NCBI GenBank assembly: GCA_014874475.1
Contig: JADBJJ010000021.1
Span: forward strand, 1-47,788
Length of the DNA stretch: 47,788 bases
Direction of reading: 5' to 3'
From: Chloroflexota bacterium
Lineage (GTDB): Bacteria; Chloroflexota; Anaerolineae; B4-G1; DUEL01
The translations under genes were made by a program, and so were the position numbers. Position 1 is the first letter of the stretch, and every line of letters starts with the position of its first letter. The notes below the pieces were generated by a model. The model was not told the origin of the DNA and did not search any database. It saw nothing but the letters and a program-made list of their open reading frames with translations. Of this stretch, positions 22,517 to 29,344 are shown piece after piece.

Positions 22517-23014
22517 ATGACCGATACCAATGAACCCCTTTATTTTCTTGCAGACGGGATGCTGGGGCGGCTGGCGCGCTGGCTGCGGCTCCTGGGGTAC
22601 GATACAGCCTACGAGAACGATGCCGACGACCTGGAACTGGCTCGCCGCGCTCGTGCGGAAGGCCGTATTCTCCTGACCCGCGACCGCTCGCTGGCGGCCC
22701 GGCGGGGTCTACGGACGCTGCTGATAGAATCGGAGCAGGTACGGGAACAGGTCCGACAGGTGGTGGAGACGTTAGGGCCGCCCCCCAGTCCGGCCCTCTC
22801 CCGCTGTAGCCTCTGCAACGTGCCGCTGAGTCCGGCTACGCCTCAGCAAGTCGCCGACCGGGTGCCCCCCTATGTCCTGCAAACACAGAAACGATTTGGC
22901 ATCTGTCCGACCTGTGGACGGATTTACTGGGCTGGCACCCACCTGCAGCACATGAAACGATACCTGGGCGAATCCCTCCCACTCCAATCGTCGGAAAACC
23001 CAGAGGACGGATAA
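22517..23014 (+). CDS. Mut7-C RNase-like domain protein with zinc ribbon
   Basis: The product is 165 aa. The N-terminal part (FLADGMLGRLARWLRLLGYDT, two pieces; Asp in ENDADD and LLTRDRSLA) matches the PIN-like Mut7-C domain. The C-terminal part is a zinc ribbon with CSLCN and CPTCGRIYW. Such proteins are thought to be RNases, but targets are unknown. It has its own promoter and is divergent from the M24 peptidase gene. Confidence 0.8.
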   Translation: MTDTNEPLYFLADGMLGRLARWLRLLGYDTAYENDADDLELARRARAEGRILLTRDRSLAARRGLRTLLIESEQVREQVRQVVETLGPPPSPALSRCSLCNVPLSPATPQQVADRVPPYVLQTQKRFGICPTCGRIYWAGTHLQHMKRYLGESLPLQSSENPEDG

Positions 23015-23076
23015 CCATCTGGCCCTCACCTTACGAGGAAGTCCAACGGTGAGACCTCCCGCCCATACCCGGGAGT

Positions 23077-23105
23077 TTGACATCTCCTGTTTTCCGTGAT
23101 ATAGT
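23077..23105 (+). promoter_or_regulatory. Promoter of the Roadblock-pyrG unit
   Basis: TTGACA (23077-23082) and TATAGT (23100-23105) have a 17-base spacer, 48 bases before the Roadblock ATG. Confidence 0.8.
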
Positions 23106-23153
23106 TTGGGCTGTGATTCCGAAGCAGACTCTATGTTCAGGGGGTAGGGAGTT

Positions 23154-23525
23154 ATGCTAAGAGCACGCTCGGAGAAACTGGTGGAGCGGTTGCAAGAATT
23201 ACAACGGAGCACGCCGGACGTGGAGGCGTCGGCGCTGGTCAGCGTGGATGGCCTGACCATTGCTTCGGCCCTACCCTCCGGCGTGGAGGAAGACCGGGTA
23301 TCAGCCATGTCTGCCGCTATGCTCTCCCTGGGCGAGCGCATCGCCGGGGAACTGGGGCGGGGTGGGTTGGATCAGGTCTATGTCAAAGGCGCGGGCGGAT
23401 ATGTCCTCTTGGCTGCCGTCGGCGCCGATGCCGTCTTGACGGTTATGGCCCGCTCCACCGCCAAACTGGGTCTGGTTTTCCTGGAGATGCGCCGCGCCGC
23501 CGAGGACCTGGAACGGATGCTGTGA
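23154..23525 (+). CDS. Roadblock/LC7 domain protein (MglB-like)
   Basis: The product is 123 aa and is a single Roadblock/LC7 domain: DVEASALVSVDGLTIAS, then GERIAGELGRGGLDQVYVKG, then an LLAAVGADAVLTVMA strand and a C-terminal helix. These small dimers regulate Ras-like GTPases; MglB is a GTPase-activating partner of MglA. No GTPase gene is next to it here, so its partner must be elsewhere or it has another role. It precedes pyrG by 46 bases and is probably cotranscribed. Confidence 0.8.
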   Translation: MLRARSEKLVERLQELQRSTPDVEASALVSVDGLTIASALPSGVEEDRVSAMSAAMLSLGERIAGELGRGGLDQVYVKGAGGYVLLAAVGADAVLTVMARSTAKLGLVFLEMRRAAEDLERML

Positions 23526-23571: not shown

Positions 23572-25203
23572 ATGCCCAAATATATTTTCTGTACGGGTGG
23601 TGTGCTCTCCAGCGTGGGTAAAGGTGTGACGGCGGCCGCTATCGGTCGTGTCCTCAAATCCCGGGGACTGCGCGTCACCATTCAGAAACTGGACCCTTAC
23701 CTCAATGTGGACCCAGGTACGATGTCCCCCTACCAGCACGGGGAGGTCTTCGTCACGGACGACGGAGCAGAGACCGACCTGGACCTGGGCCACTACGAGC
23801 GTTTCATTGATGAGAACCTCACCCGCGCCAGCAACGTCACCGCCGGACAGGTCTACGCTGAGGTCATCGCCCGGGAGCGGCGCGGCGACTATTTGGGCGG
23901 CACTATCCAGGTCATCCCCCATATCACCGATGAGATTAAACGGCGCATCCTGCTGGCAGGCCGGGCCTCCGAGGCCGATGTCGTCATTGTGGAGGTCGGG
24001 GGGACGGTGGGGGACATTGAGGGGCAGCCGTTCCTGGAAGCCCTGCGCCAGATGCGTCGGGACTTGGGGCGGGAGAATACCCTCTTTGTTCATATCACTT
24101 TCCTGCCATACATCGGCGCGACCGGGGAGTTAAAGACCAAGCCCACCCAGCACAGTGTGCGGGAACTCCGCTCTATGGGCATCCACCCGGATATGATCGT
24201 TGCCCGGGCCGACTATCCCGTGAACCCGGGATTGGTGGAGAAAATAGCTCTGTTCTGCGACGTGGAGCCCCAGGCCGTGGTTCCCCTGGTCACCACGCCC
24301 GTCCTCTACGAGGTCCCCCTGCTCCTGGAGGAGGCCGGGGTGGGAGAATTGATTGCCCGACGGTTGGACCTGGGAGTCCAATCTCCGGACCTTTCCGACT
24401 GGCATCGTCTGGTGGAGGAGGTCCGCCGGCCGAAACCTGCCCTTCCTATCGCTATTGTCGGCAAATATGTCCAGTTGCACGATGCCTACATCAGCGTCCG
24501 GGAGGCCTTGCGTCACGCCGGCCTGGCCCTGGGCTACGATGTGGATATCCACTGGATCAACTCTGAAGAACTGGAAAAAGGGCGGGGTTGGGAGTTGCTG
24601 GAAGGGGTTGCGGGCATCGTCGTCCCCGGCGGATTCGGTTATCGGGGAATTGAGGGGAAAATCCTGGCGGCGCGCTGGGCGCGGGACCGGCAGGTCCCCT
24701 ACCTGGGCCTCTGTCTGGGGATGCAGGTGATGGTCATTGAGGCTGCCCGGCGCGTGGTGGGAAATGATACCCCCAACAGCACGGAATTTGACCCCCATAC
24801 CCCTTACCCGGTGATTGACCTGCTGCCGGAACAGCGGGGAGTGGTGGACCTGGGTGGGACGATGCGGTTGGGGCTGTACCCCTGCCGGCTGGTCCCCGGC
24901 ACCCGGGCCGCAGCCGCCTACGGCGTGGGCGAGGTCCGGGAGCGGCACCGCCATCGCTTTGAGGTCAGCAACCGTTTCCGCGACCTGCTGGAGCGCGGAG
25001 GGCTGGTATTCAGCGGCCTCTCGCCGGACGGCCAACTGGTGGAGATTGCGGAAGTGGCGGGCCACCCGTTTATGGTGGGGTGTCAGTTCCATCCGGAATT
25101 CCGCTCCCGCCCGACCCGCCCTCATCCCCTTTTCCGCGCGTTTATCGCGGCGGCCAGCCGCTGTTACTCCGAAAGCGCCGATGTCGCCCGGTCCAAAAGA
25201 TAG
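23572..25203 (+). CDS. pyrG: CTP synthase
   Basis: The product is 543 aa, a normal length. It converts UTP to CTP using glutamine and ATP. The synthase domain starts KYIFCTGGVLSSVGKGVTAA with the P-loop; the metal/UTP segment is DPYLNVDPGTMSPYQHGEVF. The glutamine amidotransferase domain has GGFGYRG, catalytic Cys in LGLCLGMQ, and His/Glu in QFHPEF. The ATG has no strong ribosome binding site. It follows the Roadblock gene. Confidence 0.97.
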   Translation: MPKYIFCTGGVLSSVGKGVTAAAIGRVLKSRGLRVTIQKLDPYLNVDPGTMSPYQHGEVFVTDDGAETDLDLGHYERFIDENLTRASNVTAGQVYAEVIARERRGDYLGGTIQVIPHITDEIKRRILLAGRASEADVVIVEVGGTVGDIEGQPFLEALRQMRRDLGRENTLFVHITFLPYIGATGELKTKPTQHSVRELRSMGIHPDMIVARADYPVNPGLVEKIALFCDVEPQAVVPLVTTPVLYEVPLLLEEAGVGELIARRLDLGVQSPDLSDWHRLVEEVRRPKPALPIAIVGKYVQLHDAYISVREALRHAGLALGYDVDIHWINSEELEKGRGWELLEGVAGIVVPGGFGYRGIEGKILAARWARDRQVPYLGLCLGMQVMVIEAARRVVGNDTPNSTEFDPHTPYPVIDLLPEQRGVVDLGGTMRLGLYPCRLVPGTRAAAAYGVGEVRERHRHRFEVSNRFRDLLERGGLVFSGLSPDGQLVEIAEVAGHPFMVGCQFHPEFRSRPTRPHPLFRAFIAAASRCYSESADVARSKR

Positions 25204-25249
25204 CGGAGTGGGCCTGATATGCAGGTCCGATGAAAACCGAAGAAACACG

Positions 25250-25304: not shown

Positions 25305-26117
25305 ATGTCAGAAATCACCGTCGCGACCGTCCAGATGTTGCCGGTTCTCGGCCAGATGGAAGAGAACCTGGCCAAAATGGGCGAATTCATCCGCCGCATC
25401 GCCACCGAACAGCCGGTGGACCTCATTGTCTTCCCGGAACTGGTGACGACGGGCTACGAGGTGGGGCCACGCTTCCCGCAGATGGCCCAGCGGATACCCG
25501 GCCCGGCGGTCAACCTGATCGGTCAGCGTGCCGCCGACTACGGCGTCCATGTCGCCTTCGGTATGGTGACCAAAGAGCGGGTGGAAAGCATTCTCTACAA
25601 CTCCGCCGTGCTCATCGGGCCGGATGGCGAGGTCATCGGTCAGTACAATAAAATCCACCTGCGGGGCGAGGAGCGGATGGCCTTCCGCCCTGGCTACCGC
25701 CTGATGCCCTTTGAGACCGATTTCGGCGTCATTGGGCTGATGATCGGGTGGGACCTGGCCTTCCCGGAAGTGGCCCGCAGTCTGGTGCTGGACGGGGCTG
25801 AACTGCTGGTCGTGCTGGCGAACTGGGAGGCGCCCCGCCAGGAGGAGTGGCATACGTATCTGAAGGCGCGCGCCTATGAAAATGCGGTCTTTATGGCGGC
25901 AGCGAACCGGGTCGGAGAAGAGCCATCCTACACCTTCTTCGGCCAGAGCACTATCATCGGTCCGACCGGCGGTATCTACGGGATAGTAGACGAGCCGGTG
26001 GAGGGATACGCAGTGGCCCGTCTGGACCTGAGCGAGGTCCGGCGGCAACGGGAGGAGACGCAAATTCTCCAGTGTCGCCAGCCGATGTCGTACCGGGCTA
26101 TTGTGCGCAAGTACTGA
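25305..26117 (+). CDS. Carbon-nitrogen hydrolase (nitrilase) fold protein lacking the catalytic Cys
   Basis: The product is 270 aa from ATG 25305 (AGGAAGGGACTT in front). Family landmarks are clear: Glu45 in VFPELVTTGYE and Lys116 in YNKIHLRGEE. The elbow that normally reads ICYD or ICWD before FPE is here MIGWDLAFPE, so position 148 is Gly (GGG at 25746-25748) instead of the nucleophilic Cys. The rest is well conserved, so it looks like a maintained non-catalytic relative rather than a decaying gene. Normal members cleave amides or nitriles; this one may bind a ligand or partner. It precedes a PstS-like gene by 53 bases. Confidence 0.85.
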   Translation: MSEITVATVQMLPVLGQMEENLAKMGEFIRRIATEQPVDLIVFPELVTTGYEVGPRFPQMAQRIPGPAVNLIGQRAADYGVHVAFGMVTKERVESILYNSAVLIGPDGEVIGQYNKIHLRGEERMAFRPGYRLMPFETDFGVIGLMIGWDLAFPEVARSLVLDGAELLVVLANWEAPRQEEWHTYLKARAYENAVFMAAANRVGEEPSYTFFGQSTIIGPTGGIYGIVDEPVEGYAVARLDLSEVRRQREETQILQCRQPMSYRAIVRKY

Positions 26118-26170: not shown

Positions 26171-27058
26171 ATGATGCGTTTCCCAAAAGGTCACCACTGG
26201 ATCATCATCTTGGCCCTCACAGGCCTATTGGCTGGATGTTATTCTTCCGCTCCCACCTCGGCAGGAACGGCGGTCCCTGTCCAGACTATCGTCAACATCG
26301 GCTCCGACACGCTGGTCAATCTGGCGCTGGCCTGGGCGGAGGCCTATATGCAGGAGCATCCGGAGGTGCGTATTTCCGTCACCGGCGGAGGGTCGGGGAC
26401 GGGCATCGCCGCGCTCATCAACGGCACTGCCCACATCGCCAACGCATCTCGGGCGATGAAGCCCGAGGAGATGGAGGCCGCGCGTGCCAACGGCATCAAC
26501 CCGGTGGAGTTCACCGTCGCGCAAGATGCCATCGCGGTCGTCGTCCACCCCTCCAATCCGGTGGACTGCCTGACCCTCCAACAGATTTCGGATATCTACA
26601 CTGGGAAAATCACCAACTGGAAGGAGGTCGGTGGCGAAGACCGGCCGATTGTTCTTCTCTCCCGAGAATCCAACTCCGGGACGTACGTCTATTTTTTGGA
26701 GCAGGTCGTCCGGCTGGGGAATCCGGAGAGTGACCTGCTCTTCTCCCCGGATACATTGCTCATGCCCTCGTCGGAGGGCATCAGTACCGAGGTGCGCCAG
26801 AACCCCAACGCGATTGGCTACGACGGCCTGGGGTACGTGACGCCGGATCAGAAAGTGATCGCTGTCGGGCAGGACCCGGATGGTCCGTTTGTCCTGCCGT
26901 CTGTAGATACGGTCAATGACGGCACCTATCTCATCTCCCGTCCGCTGTATATGTACACGGCGGGCGAACCGACCGGGGTGGTCAAGGCGTATCTGGATTG
27001 GATTCTGACGACAGGCCAGGCCATTGTCCCCACTGTGGGGTTTGTCCCGCTGAGATAA
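26171..27058 (+). CDS. PstS-like phosphate-binding lipoprotein
   Basis: The product is 295 aa. The signal peptide ends in LTGLLAGC, a good lipobox. The mature part shows the PstS pattern: NIGSDTLVNL, TGGGSGTGIAALINGTA, IANASRAMKPEE, AVVVHPSNPVDCLT, IYTGKITNWKEVGG and RESNSGTYVYF. It binds phosphate or a similar oxyanion outside the cell. No pstC, pstA or pstB is nearby, so the transporter must be elsewhere or the protein acts as a sensor. ATG 26171 (or 26174) is placed to give a proper signal peptide; no clear ribosome binding site. Confidence 0.85.
   Translation: MMRFPKGHHWIIILALTGLLAGCYSSAPTSAGTAVPVQTIVNIGSDTLVNLALAWAEAYMQEHPEVRISVTGGGSGTGIAALINGTAHIANASRAMKPEEMEAARANGINPVEFTVAQDAIAVVVHPSNPVDCLTLQQISDIYTGKITNWKEVGGEDRPIVLLSRESNSGTYVYFLEQVVRLGNPESDLLFSPDTLLMPSSEGISTEVRQNPNAIGYDGLGYVTPDQKVIAVGQDPDGPFVLPSVDTVNDGTYLISRPLYMYTAGEPTGVVKAYLDWILTTGQAIVPTVGFVPLR

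Positions 27059-27090: not shown

Positions 27091-29344
<2,254 letters not shown>

Follow-up and report, generated by a model that had tools for sequence, protein, structure and literature searches.

Members of the nitrilase superfamily are routinely labelled as hydrolases from a domain match alone. The solved relatives that lie closest in sequence to the protein considered here are nitrilases and amidases from hyperthermophiles. In the group of PaNit (pdb 3ivz) and PH0642 (1j31), the catalytic Cys is present, and in several other structures it has been removed by engineering. Thus, 6ypa is a C146A amidase from P. horikoshii, solved with bound glutaramide; another amidase carries C145A in 4izs and 5ny7, the entry titles of which name butyramide and nicotinamide as the respective ligands. 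For the plant N-carbamoylputrescine amidase MtCPA (5h8i–5h8l), PMC4812014 describes a Cys flanked by two glutamates and an oxyanion hole formed by Lys and the backbone nitrogen of the Trp that follows the Cys; its C158S mutant retained binding, with strongly lowered reactivity. A natural Ser at the catalytic Cys position occurs in a symplectin/vanin-type carbon–nitrogen hydrolase of the squid D. gigas, according to a figure in PMC5541922; these are eukaryotic two-domain proteins, and the figure contains one such sequence rather than a Cys-less clade.

The stretch of DNA analysed here (the window) comprises 47,788 nucleotides of a Chloroflexota bacterium from the class Anaerolineae (assembly GCA_014874475.1, contig JADBJJ010000021.1). 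It encodes a nitrilase-fold protein with a natural Gly in place of the catalytic Cys (Table 1). The engineered Cys-to-Ala or Cys-to-Ser mutants 6ypa, 4izs, 5ny7 and 5h8l share with this protein the missing nucleophile, and they hold a bound ligand; their loss was made in the laboratory, whereas that in the clade of the window protein is natural, old and selected. An earlier description of a Cys-less nitrilase clade was not found in the open-access PMC literature, subscription papers being outside the scope of the search.

Table 1. Features of the Cys-less nitrilase-fold gene and its immediate neighbours (window positions).
Feature	Position	Strand	Basis and remarks
CTP synthase (pyrG), upstream neighbour	23572..25203	+	Pfam CTP_synth_N; upstream in 7 loci only; local context
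Cys-less nitrilase-fold protein, 270 aa plus stop	25305..26117	+	Open frame, Pfam, AlphaFold, closest fold
Glu45, kept catalytic Glu	25437..25439	+	GAA; Glu in 150/150 orthologues with a letter
Lys116, kept catalytic Lys	25650..25652	+	AAA; Lys 148, Ala 3, Glu 1 of 152 orthologues
Glu123, place of second active-site Glu	25671..25673	+	GAG; Glu 148, Gln 4 of 152 orthologues
Gly148, replacing the catalytic Cys	25746..25748	+	GGG; Gly 149, Ser 2, Asp 1, Cys 0 of 152 distinct orthologues
Tyr270, invariant last residue	26112..26114	+	Tyr in 149/149 orthologues with a letter
PstS-like lipoprotein, downstream neighbour	26174..27058	+	Pfam PBP_like_2; local context

The reading frame is uninterrupted from its ATG to the stop codon at 26115–26117. 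A longer frame, beginning at 25230, is also present; since Met1 is common to 137 of the 138 orthologues with a letter at that column, the start is placed at 25305. The full-length protein matches CN_hydrolase (Pfam PF00795) with 184.8 bits, and this domain was found in all 102 members of the orthologue alignment (A1). Matches to 11 NCBIfam families all fall far under their cut-offs; none of the equivalogs listed, which include nitrile_Arch, aguB and de_GSH_amidase, was reached (best 149.3 versus 500 bits). The profile for N-carbamoylputrescine amidase (TIGR03381) spans the whole protein with 117.2 bits, far under its 410-bit cut-off. In the AlphaFold model of the monomer, predicted with 102 orthologues in the alignment, the mean pLDDT is 94.8 and the pTM 0.92. 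Foldseek and VIA-align give 6ypa, 1j31 and 3ivz as the nearest folds (Z 38.9–39.7, rmsd 1.3), with 34–37% identity over 254–257 residues; the closest is that of the P. horikoshii amidase/PH0642 (Z 39.7 to 6ypa). N-carbamoylputrescine amidase is also alike in fold (Z ~36), but possesses the Cys that is lacking here. A preliminary description of the locus had called the fold well kept, and the domain match and the model agree with this.

The nucleophile elbow reads GLMIGWDLAFPE, and in the solved nitrilase 3ivz the residue aligned with Gly148 is the Cys; the same alignment provides the assignment of Glu123. The replacement of Cys by Gly and the intact Glu45 and Lys116 landmarks, all noted in the preliminary description, are thereby borne out. 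That description had also proposed that close homologues be aligned at position 148, where Cys would have spoken against it. Gly is shared; a nucleophilic Cys at the elbow is absent from all 152 distinct orthologues examined, and is present in 22 of 22 more distant homologues of the same alignment. The sole non-Gly residues were seen in L057 and L058 (Ser148) and in L169 (Asp148). Conservation among the 152 orthologues amounts to 100% for Glu45, 98% for Gly148 and 97% each for Lys116 and Glu123; Trp149 occurs in 134 of them, and also in the window protein. Compared with the MtCPA pocket described in PMC4812014, the window protein retains the Lys, both Glu and the Trp, which supports, but does not prove, ligand binding without hydrolysis.

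At the codon level, position 148 is GGN in 175, AGT in four, GAC in one and TGY in none of 180 orthologue loci, a number that includes duplicate loci from the same genome. The commonest codon is GGC; as this is a single step from TGC, the missing reversal to Cys is notable. A sequencing error had been considered unlikely at the outset on the grounds that GGG is at least two changes away from a Cys codon. This is true but a weak argument, given that the orthologues mostly have GGC; it is conservation that upholds the conclusion.

A substitute nucleophile was not found. The only Cys, Ser or Thr column with at least 97% conservation is Ser215, which is also found in Cys-type homologues and is therefore not a substitute specific to the Cys-less proteins. 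Cys53 is common (81 of 152 orthologues), but is replaced by Val in the window protein; Cys147 is confined to a few orthologues (L039, L042–L044).

Homologues were sought in the window's own genome and in genomes of its genus (7), family (13), order (48), class (396) and phylum (400); a further phylum search with the family profile covered 301 genomes. Orthologues and other homologues are separated by an empty stretch of scores that extends from 139 to 222 bits. At E ≤ 1e-46 the protein has a match in 217 of the 396 class genomes, whereas loci were read from 143 genomes. The phylum sample yielded matches at E ≤ 1e-50 in 16 of 400 genomes, 15 of them in the class. The one orthologue from outside the class (L082, contig 98 of G415) belongs to a genome with a listed contamination of 8%, and transfer or a mis-binned contig is possible. 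Relatives that carry names come from Thermoflexales, Thermoflexus, Ardenticatenia and other Anaerolineae or Chloroflexi metagenome-assembled genomes. A light check of other phyla by exact short patterns gave five matches, short or partial and with at most 37% identity. The protein is absent from the listed genomes of four families of the class (f29, f35, f37 and f54), most of which have an L-threonine-aldolase-like gene (see below).

In a tree of 81 rows, the Cys-less proteins (40 orthologues plus the window protein; the partial homologues L013, L017 and L031 were excluded) form one clade, with an ultrafast bootstrap of 100 and an SH-aLRT of 100. Column 148 is included in the underlying alignment of 271 columns; a single column is unlikely to create a branch with such support. 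The tree has two changes each at Lys116, Glu123 and position 148. The top non-members by the family profile (L207 and L208; 250.6 and 211.2 bits) are Cys-type proteins from other Chloroflexota. They show 36–37% identity, carry ICYD with its Cys, have no aldolase-like gene nearby, and in a quick tree are placed elsewhere than as immediate sister to the Cys-less clade.

The Cys-less protein is under purifying selection: over 16 orthologue pairs, dN/dS ranges from 0 to 0.21 and is mostly 0.03–0.1. Lys116 is absent from two lineages, neither of them the window's, and the protein persists there (L061, L062, L065 and L141); a single family supplies three of these proteins, all with Ala, and the fourth has Glu. 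In the Ala lineage, dN/dS is 0.034 and 0.043. As these ratios are low even where Lys116 is lost, the protein is kept by selection without its nucleophile. Gly148 is hence neither an error nor a private mutation, and an artefact of sequencing or assembly, or decay of the gene, has a negligible chance of explaining the locus: nothing was found in its favour, and conservation, codon counts and low dN/dS all speak against it.

Several further columns, conserved to at least 97%, are unlike those of the Cys-type homologues; together with Gly148 they comprise Phe43, Glu52, Gly54, Glu122, Arg128, Glu250, Gln253, Val267 and Tyr270. The last of these ends the chain, with a stop codon immediately after it in 173 of the 173 loci whose match extends to residue 270. 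That the chain ends in the same residue throughout suggests that this end may serve in docking. The family is otherwise rigid, apart from a loop of variable length after residues 225–233 (e.g. in L102, L129, L128 and L041), which has approximately 4 to 40 extra residues and is often acidic or rich in Pro and Ala.

Outside the window's genus, the upstream genes are rluD (in 50 loci) and lspA (in 39), or else a mobA-like or an MGMT-like gene. The names lspA, mobA, MGMT-like and threonine aldolase were assigned by recognition of the sequences, and Pfam confirms the rluD (PseudoU_synth_2) and aldolase (Beta_elim_lyase) neighbours. Linkage to the aldolase-like gene is recurrent: this gene follows next in 37 of 134 genomes, and in 21 of the 44 families, counting one locus per genome, at most 700 bases, the same strand and genomes with enough sequence. 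The gap is often 2–60 bases, and in several cases 2–20 bases. Next to Cys-type homologues, an aldolase-like gene was found in 0 of 38 loci. The two genes are not together in 97 of the 134 genomes, including the window's, where the aldolase-like gene is on another contig. The aldolase-like gene occurs in 341 of the 396 class genomes (E ≤ 1e-60), far more than the 217 with the Cys-less protein, so the aldolase does not depend on the latter; for the same reason co-occurrence is uninformative, and the evidence for a tie is the linkage. A tie between the Cys-less protein and threonine aldolase is possible.

The reading preferred here, to which a probability of roughly 0.7 may be given, is that of a nitrilase-superfamily member dedicated to a role other than hydrolysis, which lost its Cys once and is kept as a ligand-pocket protein whose state is read out by a partner. 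It is most likely a conserved pseudo-enzyme whose old active site would bind a small ligand. The nucleophile was lost in an ancestor of the Cys-less clade, and what has been retained since is a folded protein with a pocket, probably a dimer. Glu45 and, in most cases, Lys116 and Glu123 are still present in this pocket, and the elbow keeps its backbone, so that a small ligand resembling an amide, a carbamoyl compound or an amino acid could still be held; the thioester intermediate required for hydrolysis presumably could not form without Cys. Since relatives across the class keep the nucleophile-less form, binding rather than cutting is probable. Binding may be signalled to a partner by way of the dimer and the invariant C-terminus. 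The absence of Cys from every orthologue examined, its single origin, the constraint, the intact predicted fold and the recurrent linkage are direct results, and from them we infer the lack of hydrolase activity, the ligand binding, the dimer and the aldolase as partner; this partner, or pathway, may be the adjacent threonine aldolase found in about half of the families, and hence glycine/threonine metabolism. The fullest form of this idea, in which the class-wide clade senses a small molecule, or serves as an allosteric subunit, in glycine/threonine metabolism and signals via Tyr270 to L-threonine aldolase, is speculative and, as a whole, improbable.

The invariant Glu45, with Lys116 and Glu123 in 97% of the 152 orthologues, would also fit an unrecognised chemistry, in which Glu45, assisted by Lys116 and Glu123, activates water or directly abstracts a proton, making the protein a hydrolase, lyase or hydratase that forms no covalent intermediate. 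The conserved charged residues Glu122 and Arg128, specific to this family, agree with such a role. However, the protein is retained in lineages where Lys116 has become Ala or Glu, where Glu123 has become Gln (two lineages) and where Gly148 has become Ser or Asp (two lineages), and it has no conserved Ser, Thr or Cys of its own, which makes an enzyme of this kind unlikely. The conservation of these same pocket positions, among the best in the protein, tells against a purely structural subunit, partnered with a paralogue that has the Cys or with some other protein, its own pocket being ligand-free. The predicted fold is intact and one Cys-type homologue (L002) is encoded in the window's own genome, which would fit such pairing; yet a mere scaffold would not need such pocket conservation, and this explanation is somewhat less likely again than the enzymatic one. 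The preliminary description had offered a ligand-binding or scaffold protein without choosing between the two. As a class of explanation this remains the best, the nucleophile being gone throughout the clade while fold and pocket are strongly constrained.

The same description linked the protein to the adjacent PstS-like lipoprotein, and a part in phosphate or solute uptake could be read from this neighbour, whose start in the window lies no more than about 60 bases downstream. The two genes adjoin in 8 loci only (duplicates from the same genome included), all from the window's genus; even there the neighbour is missing in L005 and L007, and it is missing in loci elsewhere. The missing linkage mostly refutes the proposed tie, and an uptake role is very improbable.

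For the entire clade, which is present in over half of the sampled class genomes, the hydrolase label is very probably wrong. The clade offers a natural test case for the use of the nitrilase fold once its nucleophile has been removed, and Gly148, Glu45, Lys116, Arg128 and Tyr270 are the residues worth experiment.

Except in L102, where a pyrG lies far off and on the opposite strand, pyrG flanks the orthologue in the window's genus only. Upstream of pyrG, at 22517–23525, the window encodes a Mut7-C RNase-domain protein and a Roadblock/LC7 protein, an order kept in L085. Beyond the lipoprotein gene, 27097–27912 encodes a protein that has no match in Pfam; it is predicted to be anchored in the membrane and contains a long linker rich in Pro and Thr.
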